Part shown: positions 45,132 through 64,000 of the stretch, in pieces
Layout of the letters: each line of letters starts with the position of its first letter
Position numbering within the stretch: the stretch's first letter is position 1
The notes under the pieces: model-generated
What the model saw: the letters and a program-made list of their open reading frames with translations, nothing else
Database searches by the model: none
Told to the model about the DNA's origin: nothing
Assembly (NCBI GenBank): GCA_005502925.1
Contig: SCPD01000004.1
Location: forward strand, 248,001-312,000
DNA: 64,000 nucleotides
From: Rhizobiales bacterium Y(2018)
Lineage (GTDB): Bacteria; Pseudomonadota; Alphaproteobacteria; Rhizobiales; Aestuariivirgaceae
Direction: 5' to 3'
Made by a program: the position numbers and the translations under genes

Positions 45132-45755
45132 ATGACCGACCAGACGAAGCTGCGGCGGCTCCGCGCCGAGGACTATGTGACGAAGCCCTGGAAGAATGGC
45201 CAGGGCGTCACGCGTGATGTGATTCTGTGGCCGGCTTCGGATGAATTCGATATCCGTGTCAGCCTCGCCGACATCCCACCTGTCAGCGTCTTCTCGTCGT
45301 TCCCCGGCATCACCCGTCACATCACGCGCCTGTCGGGTGACGCCATGACGCTCACTTTCGCCGACGGCCAGGTCGAGCACCTGGCCCTTATGACACCGGT
45401 GACTTTCGACAGTGGCAAAGCTCCCTCTTGCGGGGCCTCGGGCGCCGATACCCGCGTCCTCAATGTCATGACCCGGGAAACCGTTTGGCGCTCATCGGTG
45501 ACGCCGTTGACGGAAGGCCGGCACCAGGTCGCGCCACCGCAGGGTGGCGTGCTCCTGCTCTTTGCCGCCGCCGGTTCCTGGATGGTCGAGAGCGTCCGCT
45601 GCACCCCGGGCGAGACCTTGCTGGCCATGGGGGGACCGGCCGGGATCGACCTGACCGGCGCCCCGGGCGCCAAGGCCCTTCTGGCCCGGCTGGAGCCTAC
45701 CGCCCAAGGCAAAGACGGGGCCTTTGGTTTTTTTGAAGCAATCGGCAGGAATTAA
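45132..45755 (+). CDS. hutD: HutD/Ves-family cupin-like protein
   Basis: A 207-residue protein of the HutD/Ves family (two-domain cupin fold), seen in LRAEDYVTKPWKNGQGVTRDVIL and SLADIPPVSVFSSFPGITRHI. HutD is tied to histidine utilisation, possibly binding formylglutamate as a governor; no other hut gene is present here. It lies 64 bp before the flavin monooxygenase and probably starts or precedes that cluster. Its role there is unknown. Confidence 0.9.
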   Translation: MTDQTKLRRLRAEDYVTKPWKNGQGVTRDVILWPASDEFDIRVSLADIPPVSVFSSFPGITRHITRLSGDAMTLTFADGQVEHLALMTPVTFDSGKAPSCGASGADTRVLNVMTRETVWRSSVTPLTEGRHQVAPPQGGVLLLFAAAGSWMVESVRCTPGETLLAMGGPAGIDLTGAPGAKALLARLEPTAQGKDGAFGFFEAIGRN

Positions 45756-45819
45756 TTATTTTCGCTATCCAACGTCCTCTCCTAGGCTTCCCGCATCCTC
45801 AAGAAACAGCGTGAAGACA

Positions 45820-47271: not shown

Positions 47272-47283
47272 CGGTCCAAGGTC

Positions 47284-48465: not shown

Positions 48466-49460
48466 CCTCGATACCGAAAACCATGCGCGGCGTGATCGCC
48501 AGGGAGAAGGGCGGGCCTGACGTATTATCGCTCGAAACTTTCCCGGTGCCCGAGCCCAAGCCCGGCGAAGTACTGATCAAGGTCGTTTATGCCGGTGTCT
48601 GCCGTCCCGATATCATGCAGCGCCGCGGCGTGTTTTCACCGCCGCCGGGCGCTTCCGACATATTGGGCCTCGAAGTGGCGGGCACCGTCGTCGCCTGCGG
48701 CTCGGAAGTGAAGGATCTCGCCGTCGGCAACCGTGTCGCGGCTTTGCTGTCGGGTGGCGGCTATGCCCAATATGCGGTGGCCGATGCGCGCTGCTGCCTC
48801 AAGCTGCCGGGCTTCCTGGCCGAGCGCGACTGCGCCGCTTTGCCGGAAGCCCTGTTCACCATCTGGCACAATCTGTTCGAGCTCGGCCGGCTCTCCTGCG
48901 GCGAGGCGGTGCTCATCCATGGCGGCGCCAGCGGCAATGGCACCATCGCCGTCCAGCTCGCTTATGCCATTGGCGCGACCGTCTTCGCCACCGCCGGCAC
49001 CAAGGAGAAAGCGGCGCTTCTGCACAAGCTCGGCTGCGCCCATCCGATCGTCTACCGCAATCAGGATTTCGTTTCGGTGATCGGTGAGGCGCGTGGCGCG
49101 CGCGGCGTCGATGTCGTGCTCGACATCATCGGCGGCTCTTACATGCCGCGCAATCTCGAAGCCTTGGGCCCGGGCGGTCGCCATGTGAGCGTGGCTTTCA
49201 TGGAGAGCGCCAATATCACGCTCGATTTCACCGTCGTCATGCGCAAGAGCCTGACGCTCACCTCTTCGACACTGCGCCCCAAGCCCGCCGACGAAAAAGC
49301 CCGCCTCAAACGGGCGCTCGAACGCCATGTCTGGCCGTTCGTCGAGGCCGGCCGCGTGCGTCCGATAATTCATGCCGAATTGCCGCTCGCCGAAGCGGCC
49401 GAAGCGCATCGCATCCTCGAGGCCTCCGAACAGGCCGGCAAGGTTGTGCTGCGCTGCTGA
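48462..49460 (+). CDS. quinone oxidoreductase-like MDR protein
   Basis: A 332-residue zinc-less medium-chain dehydrogenase: MRGVIAREKGGPDVLSLETF, YAGVCRPDIMQRRGVF and the NADPH fold VLIHGGASGNGTIAVQLAYA. It resembles TP53I3/QorA-type enzymes that reduce quinones or enones. ATGA overlap with the deacylase couples the two. A role in reducing a ring-hydroxylation product such as a quinone or enone is plausible but unproved. Confidence 0.92.
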   Translation: MTSIPKTMRGVIAREKGGPDVLSLETFPVPEPKPGEVLIKVVYAGVCRPDIMQRRGVFSPPPGASDILGLEVAGTVVACGSEVKDLAVGNRVAALLSGGGYAQYAVADARCCLKLPGFLAERDCAALPEALFTIWHNLFELGRLSCGEAVLIHGGASGNGTIAVQLAYAIGATVFATAGTKEKAALLHKLGCAHPIVYRNQDFVSVIGEARGARGVDVVLDIIGGSYMPRNLEALGPGGRHVSVAFMESANITLDFTVVMRKSLTLTSSTLRPKPADEKARLKRALERHVWPFVEAGRVRPIIHAELPLAEAAEAHRILEASEQAGKVVLRC

Positions 49461-49506
49461 CGACTTACGATACCGCTTTCAACTCTTTCAAAGATGAGGA
49501 AACCCC

Positions 49507-49926
49507 ATGACCCACAAGCGCATTCGTCCCTTCAACACCAAGCAGACCTATCCTGAGCAGAAGCTCGACAACGACCTCTCGCAAGGCGTCGTAGCGCGCG
49601 GCACGATGGTGTTCCTGCGCGGCCAGGTGGCGCAGGATCTCGACACACGCGCCAGCCTGCATGTCGGCGATGCCGGACTGCAGACGCGCAAGACGATGGA
49701 AAACATCAAGCTGCTGCTGGAGGAAGCCGGCAGCGAGCTGTCGCATATCTGCCGGATCGTCGTCTATCTGACCGACATCCGCTATCGCGAGGCCGTCTAT
49801 CGCGAGATGGGCGTGTGGCTCAAAGGCGTCTTCCCCTGCTCGACCGGCCTCGTGGTGCCGGCGCTGGCGCGCCCCGAATGGGTGGTCGAGATCGAAGTGA
49901 CCGCCGTCATCCCCGACAAGGCCTGA
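49507..49926 (+). CDS. RidA-family imine/enamine deaminase
   Basis: A 139-residue YjgF/YER057c/UK114 protein, slightly longer than housekeeping RidA. The trimer-cleft features SQGVVARGTMVFLRGQVAQD, ENIKLLLEEAG and the closing RPEWVVEIEVTAVIP are seen. RidA proteins hydrolyse reactive enamines or imines, and several, such as RutC, serve in catabolic operons. GAGGA is six bases before the ATG. It belongs to the run deacylase, oxidoreductase, RidA, DUF1028. Confidence 0.93.
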   Translation: MTHKRIRPFNTKQTYPEQKLDNDLSQGVVARGTMVFLRGQVAQDLDTRASLHVGDAGLQTRKTMENIKLLLEEAGSELSHICRIVVYLTDIRYREAVYREMGVWLKGVFPCSTGLVVPALARPEWVVEIEVTAVIPDKA

Positions 49927-49936
49927 GGCCAAGCTT

Positions 49937-50614
49937 ATGACCTTCTCGATCTCCGCCCGCTGCCGGCGCACCGGCATGTTCGGCATCGCGGTCTCCTCCT
50001 CGAGCCCCTGTGTCGCGGCGCGCTGCGCCCATGCCCGCGCCGGCGTCGGCGTTGTCGCCACCCAGAACATCACCGACCCGACGCTCGGCCCCAAGGGTCT
50101 CGATCTCATGGCGTCCGGCCTCTCGGCGCCGGCAGCGTTGGTGAAGCTCAAGGCCACGGCGCCCCATCTCGACTATCGCCAGCTGGCGCTGGTCGACCGC
50201 CAGGGCGGCACCGCGTCCTTCTCCGGGGGAAAGACGCTCGGCACCCACCGCATCAAAGAAGCTCCCGATGTCGTGGCGGCCGGCAATCTGCTGAAGGATC
50301 CGCAGGTGCCCGACCAGATGGTCAAGGCCTTCATGACCGATGAGCAGGCCCTACTCGGCGACCGGCTCATCGCCGCCATGCAGGCGGCCCTGGCCGCGGG
50401 CGGTGAGGAAGGGCCGGTCCATTCGGTCGGCATGCTCCTGGTGCGCGACGTCGCCTGGCCGGTGGCGGATCTGCGTGTCGACTGGCACGAGACCGACCCG
50501 ATCGGCGAGCTGGCGAGCCTCTGGATGCTGTGGAAGCCGCAAATGGACGCCTATGTGACCCGCGCCCTCAACCCTTCGACCGCCCCGTCCTACGGGGTTC
50601 CCGGCGACAAATAG
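49937..50614 (+). CDS. DUF1028 family protein
   Basis: A 225-residue member of DUF1028 (predicted Ntn-hydrolase-like fold), starting MTFSISARCRRTGMFGIAVS with ATQNITDPTLGPKGLDLM and the nearly invariant GGKTLG-type loop. No activity has been established in the family, but it often lies beside amino-acid or amide catabolism genes. It is ten bp after RidA and clearly cotranscribed, so an amidohydrolase role on the pathway intermediate is a fair guess. Confidence 0.9.
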   Translation: MTFSISARCRRTGMFGIAVSSSSPCVAARCAHARAGVGVVATQNITDPTLGPKGLDLMASGLSAPAALVKLKATAPHLDYRQLALVDRQGGTASFSGGKTLGTHRIKEAPDVVAAGNLLKDPQVPDQMVKAFMTDEQALLGDRLIAAMQAALAAGGEEGPVHSVGMLLVRDVAWPVADLRVDWHETDPIGELASLWMLWKPQMDAYVTRALNPSTAPSYGVPGDK

Positions 50615-50668
50615 AGGCCCCATGTGATACGCATTGAACCGGCCTTCAAAGGTGACATAAACTCGTAT

Positions 50669-50680
50669 CTCCTGCAGGAG
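50669..50680. promoter_or_regulatory. perfect 12-bp palindrome before the LysR gene
   Basis: ctcctgcaggag is a perfect palindrome flanked by CGTAT on the left (50664-50668) and ATACG on the right (50684-50688), so the dyad is extended but off-centre by three bases. Its right arm doubles as the AGGAGG ribosome site of the 8-codon frame at 50688. An autoregulatory operator is possible. Confidence 0.4.
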
Positions 50681-50687
50681 GAAATAC

Positions 50688-50714
50688 GTGTTCAAGTTCG
50701 GTCGAATATGGTGA
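50688..50714 (+). CDS. 8-codon leader frame upstream of LysR
   Basis: GTG at 50688 follows an AGGAGG site by six bases and encodes MFKFGRIW before TGA at 50712-50714. It overlaps the out-of-frame LysR ATG at 50708. LysR itself has no good ribosome site, so this short frame may deliver ribosomes to it by termination-reinitiation. It is too short to be confident that it is translated. Confidence 0.35.
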   Translation: MFKFGRIW

Positions 50715-51667
50715 CCAAGGCCGATCCGTCGCGATCGCCGTTACGCTTCACATTGCGGCAACTGCTTTATTTCGTCGCCGCCGGCGAAACCAAGAGCGTC
50801 AAGCTCGCCGCCGAAAGGCTCAATATCTCGCAGCCTTCGATCTCGACCGCCATCGCCCAGATCGAAGCCGAGTTCGATATCCAGCTCTTCGTACGCCATC
50901 ACGCGCAAGGCCTGTCGCTCACCCCGGCGGGCGTGCGTTTCCTGCAGGCGGCCAAGACCTTGCTCGATCAGGCCGAGGAACTGCACAATGTCGCCGACGA
51001 AGTGGCGGGTTCGGTCAGCGGCCCCTTGAACATCGGCTCCTTCCGTACCTATGCGCCCTTGATCATCTCGGAAGTCTGCAAGGGTTTCCTCGATCAGTTT
51101 CCGCGCGTGAAGCTGCATGTCTCGGAGGGTGATGAGGCCTCCCTCGTCGCCAAATTGCGCCGGGCCGAGATCAGCATCGCCGTCACTTATTCGCAGAACA
51201 TCCCCGACGACATCGATTTCGAGCCGCTGGCGCAATTGCCGACCTATGCGCTGCTGCCCGCCGATCACCCGCTGGTGGCCAAGGCGCCGATCCCTTTGAG
51301 CGACCTCGTCGAGCTCCCCTTCATCCTGCTCGATCTGCCCTTGAGCCGCGAATATTTCATGTCGCTTTTCCTGCGCGAGAATCTGGCGCCCAACATCCTC
51401 ACCCGGACCGAATATCCCGAAGCCATCCGCAGCTATGTGGCGAGCGGCTTCGGCTATTCGCTGGCGACCGCCCGGCCGCGCAACAAGGCGGCGCTCAACG
51501 GCAAGCCGCTCGCTTACGTGCCGCTCGCCGGCAACTATCCGCCCATGGTGCTCGGCCTCGCGACGCTGAAAGGCCTGCGCAAGACCAGCATCACCCAGGC
51601 TTTCGAGGCCCATTGCCGCCAGGTGATCTCGACCAACCAGATGCCCGGCATGGCGCCGCTCGACTGA
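50708..51667 (+). CDS. LysR-family regulator of the monooxygenase cluster
   Basis: A 319-residue LysR protein. HTH at about 15-75 (FTLRQLLYFVAAGETKSVKLAAERL, then SQPSISTAIAQIE) and effector domain about 105-310. The latter is closely similar throughout to the C-terminal domain of the fused flavin reductase (for example GSFRTYAP versus GAFHTFGP, and ASGFGYSLAT versus AGGFGYSLLS), implying related ligands. I start at MVTKADPS; upstream in-frame codons lack a better site. It lies within the cluster on the same strand and is probably its activator. Confidence 0.93.
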   Translation: MVTKADPSRSPLRFTLRQLLYFVAAGETKSVKLAAERLNISQPSISTAIAQIEAEFDIQLFVRHHAQGLSLTPAGVRFLQAAKTLLDQAEELHNVADEVAGSVSGPLNIGSFRTYAPLIISEVCKGFLDQFPRVKLHVSEGDEASLVAKLRRAEISIAVTYSQNIPDDIDFEPLAQLPTYALLPADHPLVAKAPIPLSDLVELPFILLDLPLSREYFMSLFLRENLAPNILTRTEYPEAIRSYVASGFGYSLATARPRNKAALNGKPLAYVPLAGNYPPMVLGLATLKGLRKTSITQAFEAHCRQVISTNQMPGMAPLD

Positions 51668-51704
51668 ACCCCAACCATCCCGCGTGATCGCAAGGAGTGC
51701 TCGG

Positions 51705-52160
51705 ATGACCCAAACTTTCAGGGCCCTGATCGTCAATGGCGCCAATACCAATCTCTATGGCGTCGACCCGAGTGGAGTCTACGGCTCCAAGACCTTGGCC
51801 GATATCGAAGCCGGCTGCCGCGCGGTCGCCAAGACGATGGGTCTGGAGCTCGATTTCCGCCAGTCGAATTATGAAGGCCAGCTGATCGACTGGATCCATG
51901 CCGCGCGCCAGACCGAAGATGGCATCATCATCAATGCCGGCAGCCTCACTTACACCTCGATCGGGCTGCTCGACGCGCTGTCGGCTTTCGCCAAGCCGGT
52001 CATCGAAGTGCATATGACCAATATCTACAAGCGCGAGCCGTTCCGGCATCATTCCTTCATCTCCAAGGCGGCAACGGGAATCATTGCCGGCTTAGGCCCC
52101 AACGGCTACGAATTCGCCGTCATGGCCATGTCTCGGCTGCTGAAGGGAGAAAAGAACTGA
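51705..52160 (+). CDS. type II dehydroquinase-like protein lacking catalytic Arg and His
   Basis: A 151-residue protein of the type II 3-dehydroquinate dehydratase (AroQ) fold and length. EVHMTNIYKREPFRHHSFIS and the Tyr in SGVYG are kept. The loop that normally reads NGPNLNxLGxREP is NGANTNLYGVDPS, so the catalytic Arg is Asp21; the INPxxxTHTS motif is INAGSLTYTS, so the catalytic His is Tyr84. It probably does not make 3-dehydroshikimate and may act on another cyclic substrate of the cluster. AAGGAG precedes the ATG, and its stop overlaps the next ATG. Confidence 0.9.
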   Translation: MTQTFRALIVNGANTNLYGVDPSGVYGSKTLADIEAGCRAVAKTMGLELDFRQSNYEGQLIDWIHAARQTEDGIIINAGSLTYTSIGLLDALSAFAKPVIEVHMTNIYKREPFRHHSFISKAATGIIAGLGPNGYEFAVMAMSRLLKGEKN

Positions 52161-53095
52161 TGAACGGCGAAGCCCTGGTTTTCTACAGCCCGACCGACGA
52201 TCCGACCGCCTGGCGGGACGCGCTCAAAACCGAGCTTCCCGATCTCGACTTCCGCGTGAGCTCCGAGCCCGGCAACAACTCGGAAGTCCGCTATGCGCTC
52301 GTCTGGAAACCGCCGACGGGGTTCTTCGCGCCCTATCCGAATATCAAGCTGGTGACCAATCTCGGCGCCGGTGTCGATGAGATCGTCGGCCGCAACGACC
52401 TGCCCGACGTGCCCATCTGCCGCCTGTCCGATCAGGGCATGGTGCAGCTGATGACGAGCTACGTGCTCTTTGCCGTACTGCGTTACGCCCGCGACATGCA
52501 GGAGTTCGAGCGCTCCACAAAACGCGGCAAATGGGAATTCATCCATCCGCGCCCGCTCGCCGAGATCAAGGTCGGCGTCCTGGGTCTGGGCGACCTCGGC
52601 GCGGCGGCGGCCATCGCCTTGGCCAATCTCGGCTTCGCCGTCTCAGGCTGGAGCCGCTCGCAGAAGCAGCTCGCCAATGTGAACTGCGTGTCGGGAGCGG
52701 ACGCGCTGGACGGCTTCCTCGCCGCCAATGAAATCCTGGTGAGCCTGTTGCCGCTGACCGAGGAGACGCGCGGCATTCTCGACAAGCGGCGCCTCGCCTT
52801 GCTGCCGAAGGGCGCCAAGTTCATCAACGTGTCGCGTGGCCAGATCGCCGATGAGGACGCCCTCATCGAAGCCTTGCGCAGCCGCCACATCGCCGAGGCG
52901 ACGCTCGACGTCTTCCACAAGGAGCCGCTGCCGGAAGGCCACCCGCTCTGGGCGCTCGACAATATCCTGATCACGCCGCATCTCGCCAGCAACACCACGC
53001 CCCGCATCGCCGCGCGCGATGTCGCCGAAAGCATAAGGCGCATCCGCCGTGGCGAGGAACCGCTGCACCGCGTCGACCCGAAGCGAGGATATTGA
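52160..53095 (+). CDS. D-2-hydroxyacid dehydrogenase (GhrA-like glyoxylate/hydroxypyruvate reductase)
   Basis: A 311-residue NAD(P)-dependent 2-hydroxyacid dehydrogenase. Visible are the Rossmann motif VGVLGLGDLGAAAAIALA, the arginine region NVSRGQIADEDAL, and the Glu/His pair in LDVFHKEPLPEGHPLW then ITPHLASN. GhrA reduces glyoxylate and hydroxypyruvate. It overlaps the dehydroquinase-like gene by one base (TGATG). It would reduce a two- or three-carbon keto acid released by the pathway. It is convergent with the fusion gene, with two bases between. Confidence 0.93.
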   Translation: MNGEALVFYSPTDDPTAWRDALKTELPDLDFRVSSEPGNNSEVRYALVWKPPTGFFAPYPNIKLVTNLGAGVDEIVGRNDLPDVPICRLSDQGMVQLMTSYVLFAVLRYARDMQEFERSTKRGKWEFIHPRPLAEIKVGVLGLGDLGAAAAIALANLGFAVSGWSRSQKQLANVNCVSGADALDGFLAANEILVSLLPLTEETRGILDKRRLALLPKGAKFINVSRGQIADEDALIEALRSRHIAEATLDVFHKEPLPEGHPLWALDNILITPHLASNTTPRIAARDVAESIRRIRRGEEPLHRVDPKRGY

Positions 53096-53097
53096 GC

Positions 53098-54270
53098 TTA
53101 AACGCCGAACAATCCTCGGCACTCCGCCGCAAAAGCTTCAGCCCCGGCGCCAAGCGTTGCGCCGGCACGCCGCGCCAGCACCACCTGGCTCGGCCGCGTC
53201 GCATCCGACAAGGGCCGCGTCACCAGCGCATTGCCGTCATAGGACATGGTGGCCGCGGGTTTCGTCGAGAGAAGGCTGTAACCGAAGCCGCCGGCGACGA
53301 GGCCGCGCGCCATTTCGAAGGAGGCGGTGCGGAAACGGATATGGGGCGTCAGCCCGCGTTCGCTGAACAGCGACAGGAAATATTCGCCACTCGGCGGCGG
53401 TTCGAGCAGGATCAAGGGCTCGTTCGCCAGCGCCGCCAGCGACAGGGTGCTCTCTTTCGCCAGCGGATGGTTCTCGGCCAGGAGCACATAGGGCTGCAAC
53501 TCGGTGAGCAATTCGGCCTCGATCTGGTCACCGAGATTGAAATCATACATCAGCGCCAGATCGACATCGCCGGCTTTGATCGCCTCGAGCACCCGCCGAT
53601 GGTCACCCTCGACCAGCTTCAGATCGATCTGCCGGCCCTTGGCGGCGAGCCTTCTCAGCACCTGCGGCACCACATGCGGACCGAAAGTGTGAAAGGCCCC
53701 GAGCCTAACCGATTCCACGCTCTGCGCCTCCTGGGCACGCCCATTGTCGATGCGCGACGGCGTGCCATAGGCGCGGTTGGCATAGATCAAGGGTGAGCCG
53801 CGATCGAGCGCGAAGATCTCCTCGACGCTGCCGATGATCACATGATGCGTGCCGATCTTCTGGGCCGACAGGATCCGGCAATCGAAAGCGGCCAGCGCAT
53901 CGACGACGCGCGGCGCACCCGTCGCGAGCGTTGTCCAGCTGGTGCAGGAAAATTTGTTGCCGTCCGCCGTCTTGTAACGCCCGGCGAAACAGTCGGAGAT
54001 GAAGGACTGGTCGTCGCGCAGCACATTCACGCAGAAGATGCCATTGTCGATGATCGCCCGCGCCGCCGGGCTCATGTGATGTACGCAGACGAGCAGTGTC
54101 GGGCGCGATGTGTCGGCCGAGACTGACGCCATTGCCGAGACCGTCACGCCGTGGCGGCCGGCGGCTCCTTCGGTGGTGACGACATTGACCGTGCAGGCGG
54201 CAAGACCCATGCCATTGAGAAAGCGCTGCCGGAGCGCCGGATCAGGCATCGTGTCTGGGGCTTCAGCCAT
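53098..54270 (-). CDS. flavin reductase fused to a LysR substrate-binding domain
   Basis: A 390-residue two-domain protein. Residues about 11-172 are a HpaC/RutF-type flavin reductase (VTVSAMASVSADTSRPTLLV, FCVNVLRDDQ, HVIIGSVEEIF), which would supply FADH2 to the HpaB-type enzyme. Residues about 186-386 are a LysR effector domain (LGAFHTFGPHVVPQVLRRL and GLVAGGFGYSLLS), with no HTH anywhere. GGAGGAG precedes the ATG at 54268-54270. A C-terminal effector domain recalls the MarR-like domain of the A. baumannii hydroxyphenylacetate reductase, where substrate stimulates activity; the same logic here is inference. Confidence 0.9.
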   Translation of the reverse strand: MAEAPDTMPDPALRQRFLNGMGLAACTVNVVTTEGAAGRHGVTVSAMASVSADTSRPTLLVCVHHMSPAARAIIDNGIFCVNVLRDDQSFISDCFAGRYKTADGNKFSCTSWTTLATGAPRVVDALAAFDCRILSAQKIGTHHVIIGSVEEIFALDRGSPLIYANRAYGTPSRIDNGRAQEAQSVESVRLGAFHTFGPHVVPQVLRRLAAKGRQIDLKLVEGDHRRVLEAIKAGDVDLALMYDFNLGDQIEAELLTELQPYVLLAENHPLAKESTLSLAALANEPLILLEPPPSGEYFLSLFSERGLTPHIRFRTASFEMARGLVAGGFGYSLLSTKPAATMSYDGNALVTRPLSDATRPSQVVLARRAGATLGAGAEAFAAECRGLFGV

Positions 54271-54284
54271 GGAATCTCTCCTCC

Positions 54285-55403
54285 TCAAGCCGGCAGGATG
54301 ACGGCCTCATCGAGCGGCACCGACAAAGCGATCTCCGAGCCGAGCGGCGCCTGGTCGATGGCCGCGGCGCCTTTGGTGCGAAGCTCGACCAGGCCGATGC
54401 CCGGCACATTGACGCGGGTCTGGGTATGCGTGCCCTGATAGATATGCGCGGCGACATTGCCCTTCACGATATTGGCGCCGTTGTGCCGCGGACCGGCAAT
54501 CTCGATATGCTCGGGCCGGATGAATATGTGGACCATCTGGCCGTCTTTCAGCTCTAGGCGGGCCGGCTGCCGGCCGTTCAGGCTGATCTCCGGGCAGACC
54601 TCGAAGCGGAAGTCCTGTCCACTCTTCTGGCAGCGCGCTTTGGGAAGCGCATTGATCTCGCCGATGAAGGACGCGACGAAGCCATTGGCGGGCTGGGTAT
54701 AGAGCTCGATCGGCGCCGAGACCTGCTGCACCTCGCCCCGGCTCATGACCACCACACGATCCGACAGGCTGAGCGCCTCGCCCTGGTCATGGGTCACGAA
54801 GATTGTGGTGAGGCCGGTCTTCTGATGCAGCTCTTTCAGCTCCACCTGCATCTGCAGGCGCAGATTTTTGTCGAGCGCCGAAAGCGGCTCGTCGAGCAGC
54901 AGCACTTTCGGCCGGATGACGATGGCGCGCGCCAGAGCGATGCGCTGCTGCTGGCCGCCGGAAAGCTGGCGCACCCGCCGCCCCTCCATGCCGGAGAGCT
55001 TCATCATGTCGAGGGCGCGTTCGACCTCCGCCTTGATCTCCTTGGCCGGCAATTTGCGCATGCGCAGGCCGAAGGCGATGTTGTCGAAAACGTTCATATG
55101 CGGGAAGAGCGCATAGCTTTGGAACACCATGCCGGTCTCGCGCATGAAGGGCGGCACGTCCGAGATATCCTTACCGTCGATACGGATGGCGCCGGATGTC
55201 TGCGTCTCGAAGCCTGCCACCATGTTGAGCAGCGTGGTCTTGCCGCAGCCTGACGGGCCCAGGAGCGTCATGAACTCGCCCTTGCGGATATTGAGCGAGA
55301 CCTTGTGGACGGCGGTGACATTGGCGAAGGTCTTGGTCACCTCGACGATGTCGACCGAATGACCGCTGTTGTTCGTGTTCATGCTGTTCGGACCACCTGT
55401 CAT
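54285..55403 (-). CDS. ABC transporter ATP-binding protein (PotA-like)
   Basis: A 372-residue ABC ATPase of the polyamine/iron (CUT1-like) type. Walker A is GPSGCGKTT, Q-loop VFQSYALFPHM, signature LSGGQQQRIALARA, Walker B VLLLDEPLSALD, and a C-terminal TOBE domain (about 285-370). It energises import by the two permeases. Its ATG overlaps the preceding permease stop (TGATG); an ATG seven codons later (55382) is an alternative. It is last in the binding protein, permease, permease, ATPase order. Confidence 0.94.
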   Translation of the reverse strand: MTGGPNSMNTNNSGHSVDIVEVTKTFANVTAVHKVSLNIRKGEFMTLLGPSGCGKTTLLNMVAGFETQTSGAIRIDGKDISDVPPFMRETGMVFQSYALFPHMNVFDNIAFGLRMRKLPAKEIKAEVERALDMMKLSGMEGRRVRQLSGGQQQRIALARAIVIRPKVLLLDEPLSALDKNLRLQMQVELKELHQKTGLTTIFVTHDQGEALSLSDRVVVMSRGEVQQVSAPIELYTQPANGFVASFIGEINALPKARCQKSGQDFRFEVCPEISLNGRQPARLELKDGQMVHIFIRPEHIEIAGPRHNGANIVKGNVAAHIYQGTHTQTRVNVPGIGLVELRTKGAAAIDQAPLGSEIALSVPLDEAVILPA

Positions 55404-56197
55404 CAGTGTGAATCTATCGCGAGGATCTTGCGCAGGCCGAGGAAGTGATTGGCCGCCATCAGGATGAGCATGGTGGCGATGATGAGCAGCGCCGAGACCG
55501 CGGCGACTGTCGGATCGGTGTATTCGCGGATATAGTTGTACATGGCGACCGGCAGCGTCTGGGTGCGGCTGGCCGTGACATAAAGCGAGGCCGAGAATTC
55601 GGTGAGCGACAGGATCGACGCCACCAGCCAGCCGCCCGCCATGCCCGGTATGATCAACGGAACGGTGATGCGGCTCAGCACCATGAACGGCGAGGCGCCG
55701 AGATTGGCGGCCGAACGCTCGAAATTGGGATCGATATTGAGCAGGCTCACATAGACGGCACGGGCGACGAAGGGCAGCACCAGCACGACATGCGTCATGA
55801 TGATGATGGTGAGCGTCTGGTTGAGGTTCAGATGCGCGCCGAGCAGCAGAAAGCCGAAACCGGTGGTGAAATGCGGGATGATCAACGGCGACGACAGAAT
55901 GCCTTCGAGCAGGTTCTTGCCCGGGAAGACATACCGCACGACCAGGAAGGCGAAGGAGGTGCCGATGACGAGCGCCAGGGTCGACGAGATCAAAGCGACG
56001 ATGAGGCCGGTGCGGAAGGCGCCGCGGAAATCGGGATAGGTGAGCGCCTTCTCGTACCAGCGCAGCGAGAAGCCATTGGGCGGGAAGGACAGGATCTCGC
56101 CCGGATTGAACGACGTCATCACCACGACGATCGCCGGGATCGTCATATAGAACAGGATGCAGCTGACGATCACCCAGAACAGCGTTTGTCTCCACAT
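55403..56197 (-). CDS. ABC transporter permease (PotC-like)
   Basis: A 264-residue inner-membrane permease with six predicted helices and the EAA-type coupling loop around NLGASPFMVLSRITVPLIIPG. Together with the next gene it forms the heterodimeric channel of a Pot-type importer. It starts 16 bp after the first permease and overlaps the ATPase gene. The substrate class (polyamine, opine or other cationic or carboxylated amine) cannot be read from sequence. Confidence 0.93.
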   Translation of the reverse strand: MWRQTLFWVIVSCILFYMTIPAIVVVMTSFNPGEILSFPPNGFSLRWYEKALTYPDFRGAFRTGLIVALISSTLALVIGTSFAFLVVRYVFPGKNLLEGILSSPLIIPHFTTGFGFLLLGAHLNLNQTLTIIIMTHVVLVLPFVARAVYVSLLNIDPNFERSAANLGASPFMVLSRITVPLIIPGMAGGWLVASILSLTEFSASLYVTASRTQTLPVAMYNYIREYTDPTVAAVSALLIIATMLILMAANHFLGLRKILAIDSH

Positions 56198-56213: not shown

Positions 56214-57068
56214 TCAGTGTATCGCCGTTTGCCGCTCGAGGCGGTTGGCGATGAGTTTCATGAGCGCCAGGCTGGCAAAGGCGCTGATCAATGCGATCAC
56301 GCTGAGCGTCGCGGCGAAGGGGAAGTTGAGGGCCGAAAAGCCCTGCAGATAGATGGCATTGGAGATCATCAGCACCTTGCCGCCGCCGATGAGCTGCGGC
56401 GTGGCGAAGGCGCTCATCGTCCAGGCAAAGATCACGATGAAACCCGAAATGATGCCCGGCATGGTGAGCGGAATGACGACCCGTGTGATGACGGTCCAGG
56501 GACGCGCGCCCAGATTGGCGGCGGCTTTTTCATAATCGGTGTTGATATGGCTGATGGCGGTGGCGAGGATGATGATCATCACCGGCATGGCGAACTGGAC
56601 GAGTGCGATGACCACGCCCGCACGGGTATACATGAAGGTGACCGGCTCGGAGATGACGCCGATATCCAGGAGCATCGTGTTGAGGAAGCCATTGGTGCCG
56701 AGCACCAACATCCAGGCATAGGTACGCACGATCTCACCGGTGAAGAGCGGCGTGATCGACAGGAGGATGAGCAGCGTCCGGACCCATTCGACCTTGGTGC
56801 GCACCAGCGCGAAGGCGATCGGATAGGACAGGATCAGCGTGAAGAAGGCGGTGGCGAGGCTGAGGACGAAGGTATTGATGACCGCCTTGAAATAGACTGG
56901 CCGGTAGATGCGGGCGAAATTGTCGAGCGTGAAGCCGCCGACATCGAGCGAACCCGGGATGAATTCACGGAGGCTGTATTGCAGGATCTCGGCCAGCGCC
57001 GCGAGGAAGATCACCGCGACGAGAATGGCGGGGACCAGGAAGGGGATGAGGAACGGGCGCTTGGACAT
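56214..57068 (-). CDS. ABC transporter permease (PotB-like)
   Basis: A 284-residue inner-membrane permease with six predicted helices, starting MSKRPFLIPFLVPAILVAVI, with the coupling loop AAANLGARPWTVITRVVIPLTMPG. The upstream frame (to 57146) is hydrophilic and atypical, so I do not include it. It lies 50 bp after the first of two solute-binding-protein genes. Confidence 0.93.
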   Translation of the reverse strand: MSKRPFLIPFLVPAILVAVIFLAALAEILQYSLREFIPGSLDVGGFTLDNFARIYRPVYFKAVINTFVLSLATAFFTLILSYPIAFALVRTKVEWVRTLLILLSITPLFTGEIVRTYAWMLVLGTNGFLNTMLLDIGVISEPVTFMYTRAGVVIALVQFAMPVMIIILATAISHINTDYEKAAANLGARPWTVITRVVIPLTMPGIISGFIVIFAWTMSAFATPQLIGGGKVLMISNAIYLQGFSALNFPFAATLSVIALISAFASLALMKLIANRLERQTAIH

Positions 57069-57118
57069 GGCAAAAATGAAAGGGCTGGCCCGCTTTGGAC
57101 GGGCCAGCCGATGTCCGC

Positions 57119-58144
57119 TTATTGCATCATATTCTCGGTGAACCAAGCCTTCCAGGTCGGAAGCAGCTTGGCCTGCACTTCATCAGGCGTGACGATCGCC
57201 TGGGTCGACCACTGCTCAGGCGTGGTGAAGATGCCGGGCAGCTTGGCGAGCTCAGGAGAGACCTTCGCGTCCTTGTTCATCGGCGAGCATTTGTGGAAGT
57301 CGCAGATTTCCTGCTGCACGACCGGATCGAGCGCCACATTGATGAATTCCTGCGCCGCATCGAGCTTCTTGGTGCCCTTGTTGATGCCCAGCGCGCCGAT
57401 GCCGACGACCGCGCCCTCCTTCGGAATCTCGATGGTGATCGGCACGCCGTTCTGGATCAGGTGATAGGCATTGATCGACAGCATGATCTGCACCGGCGTC
57501 TCGCCCGTCTTGAGCAGATCCTGGCTGGTCGCGTCCGACTGGTAGAAGGCCTTGATATTGGGCTTGAGCTTTTCGAGCAGCGGGACGCCCTTTTCCCAGG
57601 TCGCGGCGTCGCCGCCGGCGAGGATCGACGAGGCGACGATGATGTGGCTCGGATCGAAGTCGGGCATCGACAGCTTGCCGGCGACGGCATCCGACCACAG
57701 ATCGTTCCACGAGGTGATGCGGAAGTCCTTGGGCATCAGATCGGTGCGGAACACCGGGCTGTAGACATAAGAATAGACGCCGACCTCATAGTCGCCGCGA
57801 TCCGCCGCCGGATAGAGATTGGCGAAATTGGAGAGCTTGCTCTTGTCGAGTTTCTCGAACAGGCCGTCGGACTGATAGAGATAGCCGACATGGCTGGTCG
57901 TGTAGACCACATCCGATTCGGGATTGTCCTTGGCGACTTTCGCCTTGGCGAGACGGTCGAGCGTGCCGCCGGTGATGAACTCGACTTCCATGCCGGTGCG
58001 CTTGGTGAACTCCTTGGCGATGATGGCGGCGCCGTCCTTCCAGTTGCCGCCCCAGACACTGACGATGAGCTTTTCCTGCGCCGAAGCGGCGGTGCTGGCG
58101 AGAGCGATGGCGAGCGCGCCAAGGGCTATCATAAGCTTCTTCAT
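57119..58144 (-). CDS. periplasmic solute-binding protein, copy 1
   Basis: A 341-residue PotD/extracellular family 1-type binding protein with a signal peptide (1-22, ending ASAQ). The mature part begins EKLIVSVWGGNWKDG, and QNGVPITIEIPKEGAVVGI is the hinge region. It is near-identical in length and very similar throughout to the next gene upstream (58369-59394). It delivers ligand to the PotBCA-like complex. The His/Cys pair in CDFHKCSPMNKD near residue 285 is shared by both copies. Confidence 0.94.
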   Translation of the reverse strand: MKKLMIALGALAIALASTAASAQEKLIVSVWGGNWKDGAAIIAKEFTKRTGMEVEFITGGTLDRLAKAKVAKDNPESDVVYTTSHVGYLYQSDGLFEKLDKSKLSNFANLYPAADRGDYEVGVYSYVYSPVFRTDLMPKDFRITSWNDLWSDAVAGKLSMPDFDPSHIIVASSILAGGDAATWEKGVPLLEKLKPNIKAFYQSDATSQDLLKTGETPVQIMLSINAYHLIQNGVPITIEIPKEGAVVGIGALGINKGTKKLDAAQEFINVALDPVVQQEICDFHKCSPMNKDAKVSPELAKLPGIFTTPEQWSTQAIVTPDEVQAKLLPTWKAWFTENMMQ

Positions 58145-58368
58145 CTAGTCATTTCTCCCTGTTTTCATTGAATTATTCGTATTTTGACCTCGCGTAGCGA
58201 CAATGCGCTGGCAGGACAGGGACAATCTTACGGACAGGACTAAATCAGAAAATTATTATTTTCTGTGCGCTTGCTTCCAATGTTCCTAAGTAGAGGCAAG
58301 TGTCGCCCAAAAATGAAGCGCCAGGACGTCGCCGTCCCGGCGCGGATGAAAATGCCGAGTGACGCTGA
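58145..58368. other. spacer between the binding-protein copies with remnant of the amidohydrolase 3' end
   Basis: It holds no gene. The stretch ttattattttc (58253-58263), then 15 bases and aatgttcctaag, aligns without gaps to the sequence around the amidohydrolase stop (59454-59464, 15 bases, then gatgttccgaag). The spacer is thus the mark of a tandem duplication that included the end of the amidohydrolase gene. Confidence 0.65.
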
Positions 58369-59394
58369 TTACTGCATCATGTTCTCGGTGAACCAGGCCT
58401 TCCAGGTTGGCAGCAGCTTGGCGCGGATCTCATCAGGCGTGATGATCGCCTGCGTCGACCATTGCTCCGGCGTCGTAAAGATGCCGGGCAGCTTGGCGAG
58501 CTCCGCATCGATCTTCGCGTCCTTGTGCATCGGCGAGCATTTGTGGAAATTGCACAGCTGGCGCTGGATCTCCGGATCGAGCGCGACATTGATGAATTCC
58601 TGCGCCTTGTCGAGCTTCTTGGTGCCGGCATTGATGCCGAGCACATCGATGCCGACGACCGCACCTTCCTTCGGAATGGCAATCGTGACCGGCACGCCGT
58701 TCTGGATCAGGTGATAAGCGTTGATCGACAACATCACCTGCACCGGTGTTTCGCCGGTCTTGAGCAGGTCCTGGCTGGTCGCATCCGACTGATAGAAGGC
58801 TTTCACGCCGGGCTTCAGCTTCTCGAGAAGCGGAATGCCGACTTCCCAGTTCGCCGCCGTGCCGCCAGCCAGCACCGCCGAGGCAATGATGATGTGGCTC
58901 GGGTCGAAATCGGGCAGCGACAGCTTGCCCCCGACCTCCGGCGACCACAGATCGTTCCACGAGGTGAGCTTGAAGTCCTTGGGCATCAGGTCGGCGCGAT
59001 AGACCGGGCTGTAGACGTAAGAGTAAACGCCGACTTCATAATCGCCGCGATCGGCGGCCTGGACCAGGCCGGCGTAGTTGGCGATCTTGGCTTTGTCGAG
59101 CTTCTCGAACAAACCGTCGGCCTGATAGAGGAAGCCGACCTGGCTGGTGGTGAAGACCACGTCCGATTCCGGACTATCCTTGGCGACCTTGGCCTTGGCG
59201 AGCCGGTCGAGCGTGCCGCCGGTAATAAACTCAACCTCCATCCCGGTGCGCTTGGTGAATTCCTTGGCGATGATGCCGGCGCCTTCCTTCCAGTTGCCGC
59301 CCCAGATGCTGACGACCAGCTTCTCCTGCGCCGATGCCGCCGTGCTGGCGAGCGCGAGGGTCATCGCGCCGAGCACACCCCAGATCCTTTTCAT
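58369..59394 (-). CDS. periplasmic solute-binding protein, copy 2
   Basis: A 341-residue paralogue of the 57119-58144 protein, matching along the whole length, with a signal peptide to ASAQ and a mature start EKLVVSIWGGNWKEG. Differences cluster in surface positions and a few segments such as NYAGLVQAADRG versus NFANLYPAADRG, so ligand preference could have shifted slightly. It follows the amidohydrolase gene by 62 bp on the same strand. It probably serves the same transporter. Confidence 0.94.
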   Translation of the reverse strand: MKRIWGVLGAMTLALASTAASAQEKLVVSIWGGNWKEGAGIIAKEFTKRTGMEVEFITGGTLDRLAKAKVAKDSPESDVVFTTSQVGFLYQADGLFEKLDKAKIANYAGLVQAADRGDYEVGVYSYVYSPVYRADLMPKDFKLTSWNDLWSPEVGGKLSLPDFDPSHIIIASAVLAGGTAANWEVGIPLLEKLKPGVKAFYQSDATSQDLLKTGETPVQVMLSINAYHLIQNGVPVTIAIPKEGAVVGIDVLGINAGTKKLDKAQEFINVALDPEIQRQLCNFHKCSPMHKDAKIDAELAKLPGIFTTPEQWSTQAIITPDEIRAKLLPTWKAWFTENMMQ

Positions 59395-59456
59395 TGGGCT
59401 TTCCTCCGTGTTGGTGACGGCCCAAGTCTGTCCCTAACGGCAGGCAGAGAAAGTTA

Positions 59457-60926
59457 TTATTTTCCGTTGATCTGGTTTCGATGTTCCGAAGCAGTCGGCA
59501 AAGTCAGCGGCGCCAGCTCCACCAGCTTGCGCCGGCGCGGATCGTTCTCGCTGATCCGCGCCAGTGCGAAACGCTGCGCCTCGGCAAGCGCTTGGGCGGC
59601 CGCGTCATAATCGAGATGAACCGGGCGCCCCTTCTCCACCACGCGATCGCCATCGACATAGACGGCCTCGATGGCGCGCTCCGCCGCGCAATGAAGGAGA
59701 TTGCGCAACGGATCATAGACCGGCTGCATGGCGGGATGCTGGAGATCGACGATGACGAAATCCGCTTTCGCCTTGGCGGTCACGCGGCCGATATCGTCGC
59801 GCCCCAGCGCCTTGGCGCCGGCGAGCGTCGCCATGTCGAACACGTCGCCCGTCGCGACATCGGCGAAACTCTTGCCCGCGATGCGCCCGCAGATCAGCGC
59901 TTGCCGCATCTCCTCGATCATATTGTAGGGATAGCTGTCGGTGCCGAGCGCCACATTGACGCCCTGGCGGCGATAGGCGCCGATCGATTCCAGCACCATG
60001 CCGCTTCTGGCGAAGGTGACCGGGCAATGGGCGACATTGGTGCGATATTCGGCAAGGAGATCGACATCGCGCCGCGTCCGCTGGCGCGTCCAGCTGTGGC
60101 TGTCGATGAAGATGCAATGGCCAATGATGAGATTATCGGCGAGCAGATCGAGCTCTTCGAGATATTGCACGGCGGTGAGTCCGGTGCGGCGTAAAAGCTC
60201 CTCGTGCTCGGTCATGGTCTGCGCCGCATGGACGGTGATCGGCACACCCCGCGAGCGTGCCGCCTGCATCGCGTCCTGAAGCAGCTCAGCCGAGCAGGTC
60301 TCGATCTGGGACGGCGAGACCACACCGCCGAGCCGGCCCGACGGATGGGCGCGTGCCTCATCGACGACGGCGAGCGCGCGGGTGAAGGCTTCGCGGCCAC
60401 GGGCCTTGTCCCAGTGGAAATCGAGACGGTGGCTCACCTCGACATGCCATTGCGCCTCGCGGAAGCCCGGCGCCACATAGGCGCGCGCCCCGCTCTTGGC
60501 CAAAGTCGGCAGCCATGTCTCATGCGGCCCGGCAATGTCGACCAGCGTCGTGACGCCGCTGCGCAGGAGATCGCCCAGCATCACTGTCAGCGACGCCTCG
60601 ACCGCCTCCGAGCTGATTTCGATCAGGTTCGAATATTCATAAAGCGCATTGCCCCAGAGCGCCGGTGTGCCCATGTCGTTGAAGATGCCCTTGGCGACCG
60701 GCTCCTCGCCCGAATGGCAATGAACATTGACGAAGCCCGGCATAACCATCTTGCCGCGCCCGGAAATCTCCGTCTCGAAAGCGCCCTCATAACGCCCGCC
60801 GACCTGAATGAAGCCGGTTCGATCGAAGGCGACATCGCCATCGGACAGATAGGCATGGGCCTTTCGCGTGGCATCAAAAGCGACGACGCGCTCGGCATTG
60901 CGGATGACAGTGATGTGGCTAGTCAT
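59457..60926 (-). CDS. amidohydrolase/deaminase of the TRZ/ATZ-SsnA type
   Basis: A 489-residue metal-dependent hydrolase of the amidohydrolase superfamily. Metal ligands are H69-x-H71 in FVNVHCHSGEE, the His in ITVHAAQTM, the His in IIGHCIFID and the Asp in ALGTDSYPYN; an N-terminal beta segment and C-terminal strand complete the urease-like fold. Members deaminate or dechlorinate N-heterocycles (guanine, cytosine, triazines). It overlaps the Aap-type permease gene by eight bases, tying hydrolysis to uptake. The substrate is unknown but probably N-heterocyclic. Confidence 0.93.
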   Translation of the reverse strand: MTSHITVIRNAERVVAFDATRKAHAYLSDGDVAFDRTGFIQVGGRYEGAFETEISGRGKMVMPGFVNVHCHSGEEPVAKGIFNDMGTPALWGNALYEYSNLIEISSEAVEASLTVMLGDLLRSGVTTLVDIAGPHETWLPTLAKSGARAYVAPGFREAQWHVEVSHRLDFHWDKARGREAFTRALAVVDEARAHPSGRLGGVVSPSQIETCSAELLQDAMQAARSRGVPITVHAAQTMTEHEELLRRTGLTAVQYLEELDLLADNLIIGHCIFIDSHSWTRQRTRRDVDLLAEYRTNVAHCPVTFARSGMVLESIGAYRRQGVNVALGTDSYPYNMIEEMRQALICGRIAGKSFADVATGDVFDMATLAGAKALGRDDIGRVTAKAKADFVIVDLQHPAMQPVYDPLRNLLHCAAERAIEAVYVDGDRVVEKGRPVHLDYDAAAQALAEAQRFALARISENDPRRRKLVELAPLTLPTASEHRNQINGK

Positions 60927-62001
60927 GCGTGGTCCTGTAATAGCGCTCGAGGAAGCGGCTATAGGCGCCCATCAGGGCGCTGAAGGTGAAATAGACAAAG
61001 GCAGCGAAGAGATAGCCTTCCAGCACCGCAATGCCCTGCCAGTCAGGATCGCGCAAGGCCGAGCGCACCGTATCGAGGAAGTCGAGAAGTCCGATGATCG
61101 TGACCAGCGTCGTGTCCTGGAAGAAGCCGATGAACAGCGAGACGAGCGGCGGGATCACCTTCTTCAGGGCCTGCGGCAGCACGATCTTGCGCATGATAAG
61201 CCAGTAATGCAGCCCCAGCGCATTGCCGGCCTCGATCTGCCCCTTGGGGACCGCCTGCAGGCCGCCGCGCACGATCTCGGCGATGTAGGCGGCGGCGAAC
61301 AGGATGATCGCCACCTGGGCGCGCAGCAATTTGTCGATCGTGACGCCTTCCGGCATGAACAGCGGCAGCATCACCGTCGCCAGGAACAGGAGGCTGATCA
61401 ACGGCACGCCGCGCACGATCTCGATGAAGCTGATGGCGAGCACACGGATGGCCGGCAGGTCCGACTGGCGCGCCAGCGCGAGGGCGATGCCGAGCGGCAT
61501 TGCCGCGGCGAGGCCGATGAAGGACAGCATGAAGGACAGCGGCAGGCCGCCCCACTTGGAGCTCGGCACGGCGCTGAGGCCCAACACACCGCCGGCCATC
61601 AGAATGTAGAGCGCCGGAATCAGCACGACGAGCCAGGCGAGGAGCAGTCCTCGGCTCCACAAGCGCGGCACCATCGAGACGAGCGCGGCGCCGAGGAACA
61701 AGAGCAAGGCGGCGAAGGGACGCCACTGCTCTTCGTAAGGATAGAAGCCGAAGATCATGTAGCGGAGCTTCGCACCGAGGAATGGCCAGCAGGCCCCGCT
61801 CCCCACTTTGCAATCAGCCGGCGTACCCGTGAATACGGCGTCGATCAACAGCCAGCCGATGGCGATCTTGGCCAGAAGAGCGAGCGCCAGCACGCAGAAC
61901 ATGGTGATGAGCGCATTGCCCGGTGTTCCAAACAGATTCTTGATCCATGGCCGCGCCCGCCGTGGCGGGCCAAGAGGGACGGACAGCTGAAGCTCGGCCA
62001 T
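60919..62001 (-). CDS. aapM: polar amino acid ABC transporter permease (AapM-like)
   Basis: A 360-residue inner-membrane permease of the HisM/AapM type with an N-terminal extension of two helices before the core domain. The coupling loop AGNALGLHYWLIMRKIVLPQAL is visible, as is GVPLISLLFLATVMLPLF. It pairs with the AapQ-like gene one base upstream. AapJQMP importers take up a broad range of amino acids; this copy may be dedicated to the cluster substrate or its product. Confidence 0.92.
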   Translation of the reverse strand: MAELQLSVPLGPPRRARPWIKNLFGTPGNALITMFCVLALALLAKIAIGWLLIDAVFTGTPADCKVGSGACWPFLGAKLRYMIFGFYPYEEQWRPFAALLLFLGAALVSMVPRLWSRGLLLAWLVVLIPALYILMAGGVLGLSAVPSSKWGGLPLSFMLSFIGLAAAMPLGIALALARQSDLPAIRVLAISFIEIVRGVPLISLLFLATVMLPLFMPEGVTIDKLLRAQVAIILFAAAYIAEIVRGGLQAVPKGQIEAGNALGLHYWLIMRKIVLPQALKKVIPPLVSLFIGFFQDTTLVTIIGLLDFLDTVRSALRDPDWQGIAVLEGYLFAAFVYFTFSALMGAYSRFLERYYRTTHD

Positions 62002-62002
62002 C

Positions 62003-63151
62003 TCAGCGCTCCGTCAGCGCGACGCGCCCATTGTACCAGTTCATGAAGAGCGAGATCGCAACCGAAAGCCCGAGATAGACTGCCATGAAGATGGCGATGG
62101 TCTCAATCGCCTGGCCGGTCTGGTTCATCACGGTGTTGGAGACCATCACCAGGTCGGGATAGCCGATGGCGATGGCGAGCGAGCTGTTCTTGAACACGGT
62201 GAGATAGATATTGGTGAGCGGCGGCACCATCAGCCGCAAAGCCTGCGGCAGGATGACGAGGCGCATCACGCGGCCGCGTTGCAGCCCGAGCGCCGCGGCC
62301 GCTTCCCATTGGCCCTTGTTGATCGCCTGGATGCCGGCGCGGACGATCTCGGCGACGCTCGCCGAGACGCTGAGCGAAAGCCCCACCAGCAAGGCAACGA
62401 ATTCCGGCCTGATATGCAGACCACCAGTGATCCTGAAGCGCCCGGCTTCGGGAACTTCCCACGTGATGGCGACGCCGCCCAGAAGCACCAGTGCCAGCAC
62501 CGGCCCGACAAGGGCAAAGAACGCGACCAGGCCGCCATGGTTCGGCTGTCCGGTTTCGACACGACGGTGCAAAGCGGTGCGGCGGATGAAGAAGGCGGCG
62601 ATGATGCCGAGAATAACGGCCCAACGCAGGAATACGGCGCCCTTCTCGAAAGTGAGGGATGGCAGCACGAGGCCGCTATTGGAGAGATAGACATGCGGCG
62701 CGAGTTCGAGCGCCTCCTTCACCGGCGGCAGCGCCACCAGAAGGATGGCGTACCAGAGGAACAGATAGAGCAGCAGCGGCACGTTGCGCAGCGCTTCCAC
62801 ATAAGAGAGCATCAGGCGTTGCAGCAGCGGGTTGCGCGACATGCGCCCGATGCCGACGAGGAGCCCGATGATCGTTCCGAGGATCGCCGCCAACAGAGAG
62901 ACTTTGACCGTATTGGCGATGCCGACCAGCAGTGCCCGGCCGATCGTATCCGTCTCCTGATAGGGAATGGTTGTTTCGCTGATGATGAAACCGGCTTGGC
63001 GATCGAGATAGCCGAAGCCGGTGGCGATATTCTGCTTGGCGAGATTGTCGCTGACGGTCGCGAACATCAGCCAGCCGGCGATGAGGACGATCCCCACCGC
63101 GCAGAACTGGTAGAACCAGGCGCGGAACCGTTTGTCGTAGAACAGGGTCAT
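62003..63151 (-). CDS. aapQ: polar amino acid ABC transporter permease (AapQ-like)
   Basis: A 382-residue inner-membrane permease. The core domain carries EALRNVPLLLYLFLWY and the coupling loop AALGLQRGRVMRLVILPQAL; the length and the large segment between helices fit AapQ. It lies 46 bp after the binding-protein stop and directly before aapM. No ATPase (aapP) follows, because the amidohydrolase takes that place, so the ATPase must be encoded elsewhere. Confidence 0.92.
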   Translation of the reverse strand: MTLFYDKRFRAWFYQFCAVGIVLIAGWLMFATVSDNLAKQNIATGFGYLDRQAGFIISETTIPYQETDTIGRALLVGIANTVKVSLLAAILGTIIGLLVGIGRMSRNPLLQRLMLSYVEALRNVPLLLYLFLWYAILLVALPPVKEALELAPHVYLSNSGLVLPSLTFEKGAVFLRWAVILGIIAAFFIRRTALHRRVETGQPNHGGLVAFFALVGPVLALVLLGGVAITWEVPEAGRFRITGGLHIRPEFVALLVGLSLSVSASVAEIVRAGIQAINKGQWEAAAALGLQRGRVMRLVILPQALRLMVPPLTNIYLTVFKNSSLAIAIGYPDLVMVSNTVMNQTGQAIETIAIFMAVYLGLSVAISLFMNWYNGRVALTER

Positions 63152-63197: not shown

Positions 63198-64000
63198 TCA
63201 GCGGATCGGCGGCGCGTAGAGAAGGCCGCCCGCATTCCATTGCGTATTGGGTCCGCGCGTCATGCCGAGGCGGGTGCCCTGGCCCATATTGCGCTCGAAC
63301 ACCTCGCCATAATTGCCGACGGACTTGATGATGTTGTAGCCCCACTTCTTGTCGAGGCCGAGCATCGGGCCGAGCTCGTCGGTGACGCCCAGCATGCGCT
63401 GGATTTCCGGATCCTCGCTCTTGAGCTTCTCATCGACATTGGCCTGGGTGATGCCCTTCTCCTCGGCGGCCATCAGCATCCATACCGACCACGAGACGAT
63501 GTCGCGCCAGGCGGAATCATTCTGCCGCACGGCCGGCGCCAGCGGTTCCTTCGAGATGGTCTCCGGCAAAAGGATGTAATCGTCGGGATTATTGGCGACG
63601 GCGCGGATCGAAGCCAGATCGGAACGGTCCGAGGAAATCGCCTGGCAGCGGCCGCCAAAGAAGGCGGCGCGGTTCTCGTCCGGGCTTTCGAACACGACGA
63701 GCTCGAACTTGGCGCCGAGAGTGCGGAAGAAATCGCTCAGGTTCTGCGCTGTGGTGGTGCCGGGCAGCGTGCAGATCGCCGCATCCTGCAGTTCCTTGGC
63801 GCTCGCGACGCCGAGGCTCTTCGCCACCATGAGGCCCTGGCCGTCGTAGAAGACGGTCGGCCCGAAATCGAGGCCGAGCGAGGCCTCGCGCGTATAAGTG
63901 AGCGTCGTCTGGCGCGACAGCACGTCGACCTCGCCCGACTGCACCGCCTGGAACCGCGTATTGATATTGGTCGGGACGAAATCGACCTTGTCACCATCGC
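63198..64000 (-). CDS. aapJ: amino acid ABC transporter binding protein (AapJ-like), N-terminus outside the window
   Basis: The C-terminal 266 or so residues of a family 3 solute-binding protein. INTRFQAVQSGEVDVLSRQTT, the FYDGQGLMV segment and the ending GPNTQWNAGGLLYAPPIR are typical of AapJ. The frame runs off the right edge, so signal peptide and start are not seen. It is first in the order aapJ, aapQ, aapM, amidohydrolase. Confidence 0.93.
   Translation of the reverse strand, partial: DGDKVDFVPTNINTRFQAVQSGEVDVLSRQTTLTYTREASLGLDFGPTVFYDGQGLMVAKSLGVASAKELQDAAICTLPGTTTAQNLSDFFRTLGAKFELVVFESPDENRAAFFGGRCQAISSDRSDLASIRAVANNPDDYILLPETISKEPLAPAVRQNDSAWRDIVSWSVWMLMAAEEKGITQANVDEKLKSEDPEIQRMLGVTDELGPMLGLDKKWGYNIIKSVGNYGEVFERNMGQGTRLGMTRGPNTQWNAGGLLYAPPIR

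Follow-up and report, generated by a model that had tools for sequence, protein, structure and literature searches.

Gene layout of the locus

The locus described here lies on the minus strand of a window of 64,000 nucleotides (nt), this being the whole stretch of DNA analysed (contig SCPD01000004.1, positions 248,001 to 312,000, of Rhizobiales bacterium Y(2018), genome G000). It contains two adjacent genes for binding proteins of a Pot-type ATP-binding cassette (ABC) importer, termed copy A (58369..59394) and copy B (57119..58144). Their relationship points to a tandem duplication, and a short stretch repeated before each of them, which ahead of copy A forms the last codons of an amidohydrolase (AH) gene, marks what appears to be the left edge of the duplicated unit.

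Upstream of copy A is a cassette that begins with a binding-protein gene (63198..64000, recognized from its translation and extending beyond the window end), followed by two amino-acid-type permease genes (62003..63151 and 60919..62001) and, as final gene, the AH (59457..60926), the start of which overlaps the second permease gene by 8 nt. These first three genes carry the labels aapJ, aapQ and aapM, which are presumed names. A gene for a GntR/FCD regulator is located beyond the aapJ-like gene, outside the window and on the opposite strand (the arrangement being GntR-aapJ-aapQ-aapM-AH). Copy A starts 62 nt after the AH. The shared stretch preceding it (59455..59501) comprises the final AH codons, TTG-CCG through the stop, and its second copy (58254..58299) is within the spacer between A and B. 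This spacer also holds a terminator-like hairpin of 11 pairs with a T-rich tail (58318..58343), and another hairpin of 11 pairs with a T-rich tail (57083..57109) separates B from the first importer permease gene. The remaining importer genes encode a PotB-like permease (56214..57068, taken to start at the ATG of MSKRPFL, whereas its listed open reading frame (ORF) starts at 57146), a PotC-like permease (55403..56197) and a transporter ATPase (54285..55403, named from its translation, with its start inferred inside a listed ORF of 636 amino acids (aa)). The counterpart of this ATPase in genome G002 is a 380-aa ORF.

Identity, constraint and ancestry of the two copies

Both copies encode proteins of 341 residues that are alike along their full length, as the preliminary description had proposed, with 82.1% identity in amino acids and 82.4% in nucleotides. 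With gene conversion in mind, A-B identity was also taken in 30-codon windows within each genome, where it ranged from 0.72 to 0.96. In a tree of 36 proteins, A and B formed one group with support of 100/99, with the A group likewise supported at 100/99, and the nearest proteins to A+B were those of Aminobacter, Pseudaminobacter and Ancylobacter. A protein titled as belonging to a Bordetella parapertussis metagenome-assembled genome (MAG; L017) clustered in this tree with environmental betaproteobacterial MAGs, and its label may be wrong.

An adjacent pair was found in three of 40 genomes at a match threshold of E ≤ 1e-40, namely G000 itself and the other two species of the genus with the pair (G002 and G003), all three with two adjacent copies. 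Among 397 genomes of the order, for each of which at most five candidates were scored, 13 had a match at E ≤ 1e-60, with the adjacent pair in G000 only; one of the genomes (G366) had two matches, on different contigs. Loci L034-L046 had one match each within the roughly 4 kb examined. A further scan of genome contigs gave 18 loci, 17 of which carried one copy without any AH in the stretch examined, the 18th (L013, corresponding to the locus of G003 and with the same coordinates) having the pair and the AH. At L014 and L018 the single copy comes after a gene read from its translation as a 2-hydroxyacid dehydrogenase. The joint grouping of A and B and the single copies without an AH at these 17 loci bear out the tandem duplication that had been suggested from the window alone.

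The A-B pair of G000 showed 0.113 non-synonymous (dN) and 0.60 synonymous (dS) substitutions per site. Values of dN/dS were 0.035-0.114 in six A-A and B-B pairs and 0.147-0.218 in nine A-B pairs, which indicates that the copies are constrained and that more protein change lies between copies than between orthologues. As dS between G000 and G002 was 0.51 for A-A and 0.34 for B-B, against 0.60 for A-B, the duplication predates the split of these two species. Thirty residues were found to be fixed differently in A and B; the derived state was assigned to A at 10 of them (with four less sure), to B at three (with one less sure), and was unclear at 12.

The stretch shared by the spacer and the end of the amidohydrolase gene

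Alignment of the A-B spacer with the region around the AH stop codon gave a gapless match of 47 nt (58247-58293 against 59448-59494, 74% identity, offset 1201). When the spacer was aligned locally with the 300 nt that precede A, scores of 36, 39 and 40 were obtained for G000, G002 and G003, respectively (Gumbel p of about 2e-5, 7e-7 and 8e-7), and none of 1000 dinucleotide shuffles reached the score in any of the three genomes. Chance similarity of the spacers is ruled out by this result, and the gapless alignment that had been reported, from 58253 onward against 59454 onward, was reproduced at the same positions. G000, G002 and G003 each contain the pattern GGAACAT-N14..20-AAAATAATA exactly two times, once before A and once before B, and G001 and G004 lack it.

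The ORFs of A and B are offset by 1250, which is 49 nt more than the offset of the shared stretch. This difference is accompanied by a leader of A that is shorter in G000 and G003, where 97 nt separate the shared stretch from the ATG, in comparison to 145 nt before A in G002 and 142-146 nt before B. To the left of the shared stretch no convincing match was found, the scores there being reached by 27, 523 and 759 of 1000 shuffles (G000, G002 and G003). The similarity therefore breaks off sharply on its left side near TTGCC, at the Leu-Pro codons with which the conserved part of the AH closes. Within the stretch, A and B were identical at 26, 28 and 27 of 36 positions, and identity at four-fold sites of the genes was 0.75, 0.72 and 0.73; these near-equal values are as expected from one shared event. 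A near-palindrome, AGAAAATTATTATTTTCT, was seen at 58247-58264 before B, which is poorly kept before A and in G002 and is a possible operator.

The amidohydrolase and its C-terminal tail

The AH consists of 489 aa and scored 131.1 bits against Pfam Amidohydro_1 (cut-off 25) and 354.5 bits against the chlorohydrolase family PRK06151, below the curated cut-off of 416. Its conserved part extends to residue 477 (LAPLTLP) and is followed by a 12-residue tail, TASEHRNQINGK, which lies in the shared stretch; the AH of G003 also has 12 residues after the Leu-Pro. All eight aligned homologues end 2-7 residues past the conserved Leu-Pro (Leu-Ala in one), these being seven plasmid records and G281 (L054), with eight more distant homologues outside the count. 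The seven were taken from 13 plasmid records at 60-80% identity, among 28 in total. Across 297 genomes, none of 24 AH matches (E ≤ 1e-100, the AH of the window aside) extends past residue 483 of 489.

The duplicated unit had been described as spanning the 3’ end of the AH gene together with the binding protein. This held to the extent that about 13-14 codons at the end of the AH, together with part of the leader, lie in the shared block. Of these codons, however, just the first few are conserved AH sequence, and the others make up the tail lacking in the eight homologues. The tail may therefore originally be the flank of the binding-protein gene, with the AH reading into it. Judging from these homologues, it may have been leader before it was AH.

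The plasmid homologues belong to rhizobial aap-AH cassettes that resemble the one described here: the AH is 64-74% identical in the seven records and comes after ABC permease genes in both annotated records, one of which also has a GntR gene upstream. In contrast to the window, the plasmid AH is 476-484 aa in length, and in neither annotated record does an A/B-like pair stand immediately after it. Stretches like ATTGTATACAATAATG were observed upstream of plasmid AH genes (L078 at about 2501, L082 at about 2398); they resemble GTACATTATTGTAC before the aapJ-like gene of the window and could be a GntR operator.

Loss of the cassette in G002

No AH was found in G002 at E ≤ 1e-50. The region before its copy A (L031) retains a relic of the AH tail that would read ALEHQNQMNGK-stop, as well as a relic of 89 nt from the GntR-aapJ intergenic region, which scored 41 against G000 and 36 against G003 (the top scores of 500 mononucleotide shuffles were 31 and 30), and both outer flanks of the G002 region match G000. 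These features show that G002 lost the cassette, so the cassette was in place before G002 split off. The alternative that G002 represents the state before cassette arrival is ruled out by the 89-nt relic and the matching outer flanks. The cassette was probably also in place before the duplication, as the similarity between the regions before A and B reaches the conserved end codons of the AH, though by few bases.

Binding-protein family and pocket sites

Both proteins belong to the Pfam family SBP_bac_8 (107 bits for B and 97.3 for A, gathering cut-off 27). Against the PotD equivalogue (PRK09501) they scored 85.2 and 80.1 bits, far under the curated cut-off of 582. Predicted structures had a mean predicted local distance difference test (pLDDT) value of 90.3 for B and 91.7 for A, and a structure search with B returned 4edp as the top Protein Data Bank match with a template modelling (TM) score of 0.80, and PotD with 0.72-0.75. 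The copies share with PotD and PotF their fold and domain family, along with an importer with PotB- and PotC-like permeases. They are unlike PotD in that score, in the replacement of PotD W255 by Gly, and in that the equivalent of D257 is Asp in A only.

By profile alignment, sites 250 and 37 correspond to PotD D257 and E36, a putative equivalence drawn from sequence alignment at about 25% identity. E36 and D257 belong to four acidic spermidine-binding residues of PotD (PMC11414716; also PMC4096761). At site 250, Asp occurs in 30 of 36 rows, those of A included, and Gly is confined to B and L014-L016. At site 37, A has Glu and B has Asp, so that the PotD E36 position is acidic in both, and this exchange is the same as that of PotD E36 for PotF D39. 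Site 85 is His in B and is Gln in A and L018 only; our alignment places it at PotF F88, which, according to PMC8666671, points into the pocket and has been exchanged, together with other residues, in variants with altered spermidine affinity. From these sequence differences, it is possible that A and B serve different ligands of one transporter, as the preliminary description had also considered.

Interpretation of the gene pair

Hairpin folding gave z -3.8 for the A-B spacer and z -3.3 for the region between B and the permease. The gene layout and the hairpin in the A-B spacer suggest that expression of A is tied to the GntR-linked cassette and that of B to the importer. The explanation that we favour overall, and which we hold to be about an even call, is a tandem duplication that left two controls, one importer and some ligand divergence. 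In this explanation, the binding-protein gene of the importer was duplicated in tandem in the ancestor of the three species of the genus, in a unit that appears to start in the last codons of the upstream AH gene and would end about the stop codon of the binding-protein gene. Copy A now stands directly after the AH at the end of the GntR-aapJQM-AH cassette, and copy B heads the importer operon behind the putative terminator, an arrangement that most likely gives each of two controls its own binding protein. Judging from the layout, both copies would feed the one importer, with some divergence in ligand preference between them.

A number of results weigh against this explanation or parts of it. 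No right edge of the unit could be made out, since similarity downstream of the stop codons was equalled by 23, 121 and 24 of 500 shuffles, and outside the shared stretch the leader aligned no better than shuffles (58 of 100, score -12, shuffle maximum 12). A scan of 57000-59700 for a terminator-like consensus gave four sites with 2.0 expected, and one for promoter-like sites gave two with 0.8 expected. In the approximately unbiased (AU) test, a tree in which B was held with L014-L016 was not rejected (p 0.058). As to the pocket, apart from the low identity behind the site equivalence, the position of PotD W255 is Gly248 in all 36 rows and offers no aromatic residue, so a polyamine ligand is not implied. 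Fixed A/B differences fall at two of 12 PotD-contact equivalents, a chance level for 30 of 341 residues (p 0.25-0.29), and at three of 13 if PotF pocket site 85 is added (p 0.08, a choice made after the differences were seen); these counts weaken the pocket differences as proof of different ligands. Copy A of G002 is also frameshifted at the signal peptide, meaning that A is dispensable there or that the assembly is wrong.

The strongest alternative, somewhat less probable yet quite possible, is one of dosage or redundancy, in which the duplication was merely retained, both proteins bind the same ligand and their differences are drift. The chance-level count at contact equivalents fits such a history, as do the conservative nature of many of the 30 fixed differences, a dN/dS well under 1 and the frameshifted A of G002. 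However, the duplication is not recent (dS about 0.6), both copies are open and constrained in G000 and G003, and derived sites are more numerous in A (10+4 compared with 3+1 in B, of 30).

A second alternative, which we regard as possible though less likely than not, concerns the shared stretch and can be combined with either reading of the copies. It holds that the stretch, rather than being part of the AH gene, serves the binding-protein gene as promoter or operator and is under selection at both copies, with the AH simply reading into it. The version before B contains a sigma-70-like match (TTGGAA-17-AATAAT, 9 of 12) as well as the near-palindrome, one of the two sigma-70-like sites being on the gene strand in this stretch. 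The remaining leader is less alike, the eight aligned AH homologues stop before the stretch, and the stretch is also present before copy A of G002, which has no AH; against this last point, the relic of the GntR-aapJ intergenic region in G002 indicates that an AH was formerly there and then lost. The A-B identity of the stretch is at about the level of four-fold sites, so its similarity calls for no functional promoter, and RNA folding of the stretch gave nothing notable (z -0.87 and 0.80). The similarity does extend to TTGCC, the conserved end codons of the AH, by a few bases only.

It is also conceivable, but we think unlikely, that a newly joined catabolic cassette captured the binding protein of the neighbouring importer. 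Copy A would then have become the last cassette gene, with an acidic pocket for an amine compound handled by the AH, B would have stayed with the older importer, and A would have decayed when a relative lost the cassette. That A and B come from separate older families and were later joined is highly improbable: residues Q85, A92, D250 and V251 are common to A and Ancylobacter L018, and H85, G250 and A251 to B and L014-L016, the placement with B being the one that the AU test left unrejected, but the A+B group has its 100/99 support, holding A with L018 and L034 was rejected (p 0.0001; the groups for both AU tests were chosen after the pocket states had been seen), dS is 0.60 for A-B in G000 against 0.93-1.17 for B to L014-L016, and the duplicated stretch is itself present.

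Such a tandem duplication is an ordinary kind of event, and the locus adds a case to a known kind of binding-protein pair. The nearest known case is argT-hisJQMP of Escherichia coli, with genes for the LAO- and histidine-binding proteins, in which the argT/hisJ pair arose by tandem duplication. PMC6640053 describes these two binding-protein genes as lying in a single cluster, with 70% identity, separate promoters and different ligand preference at one permease complex. The layout is alike in that adjacent homologous binding-protein genes stand beside one permease/ATPase set, and the present copies also derive from duplication, as indicated by their joint grouping and the shared stretch. The two cases differ in binding-protein family, and ligands and controls are established for argT-hisJQMP, whereas the two controls and the ligand divergence proposed here are putative; that source, in its accessible part, says nothing of a copied end of an enzyme gene. 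The locus itself was not met in the literature searched, and no wider claim is made. It provides a clearly delimited natural example of binding-protein duplication beside one importer, in which the order of regulatory and ligand divergence is testable, since single-copy relatives show either state at site 250. It further illustrates that the final codons of one gene can be copied along with the leader of the gene that follows, or can arise from that leader.

Neighbouring genes

Adjacent to the ATPase gene, a gene at 53098-54288 on the minus strand encodes a flavin-reductase domain and a LysR substrate-binding domain in one protein, possibly a ligand-sensing reductase; no LysR helix-turn-helix domain was found in it by a scan with family profiles. 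Beside the importer, 45132-53095 contains a catabolic block with HutD, an HpaB-type monooxygenase, an M20 peptidase, DUF1028, a LysR regulator, a class II dehydroquinase-type protein and a 2-hydroxyacid dehydrogenase. Similar dehydrogenase, HutD, HpaB and LysR proteins, with names read from their translations, are encoded near the single-copy gene of Ancylobacter L018.

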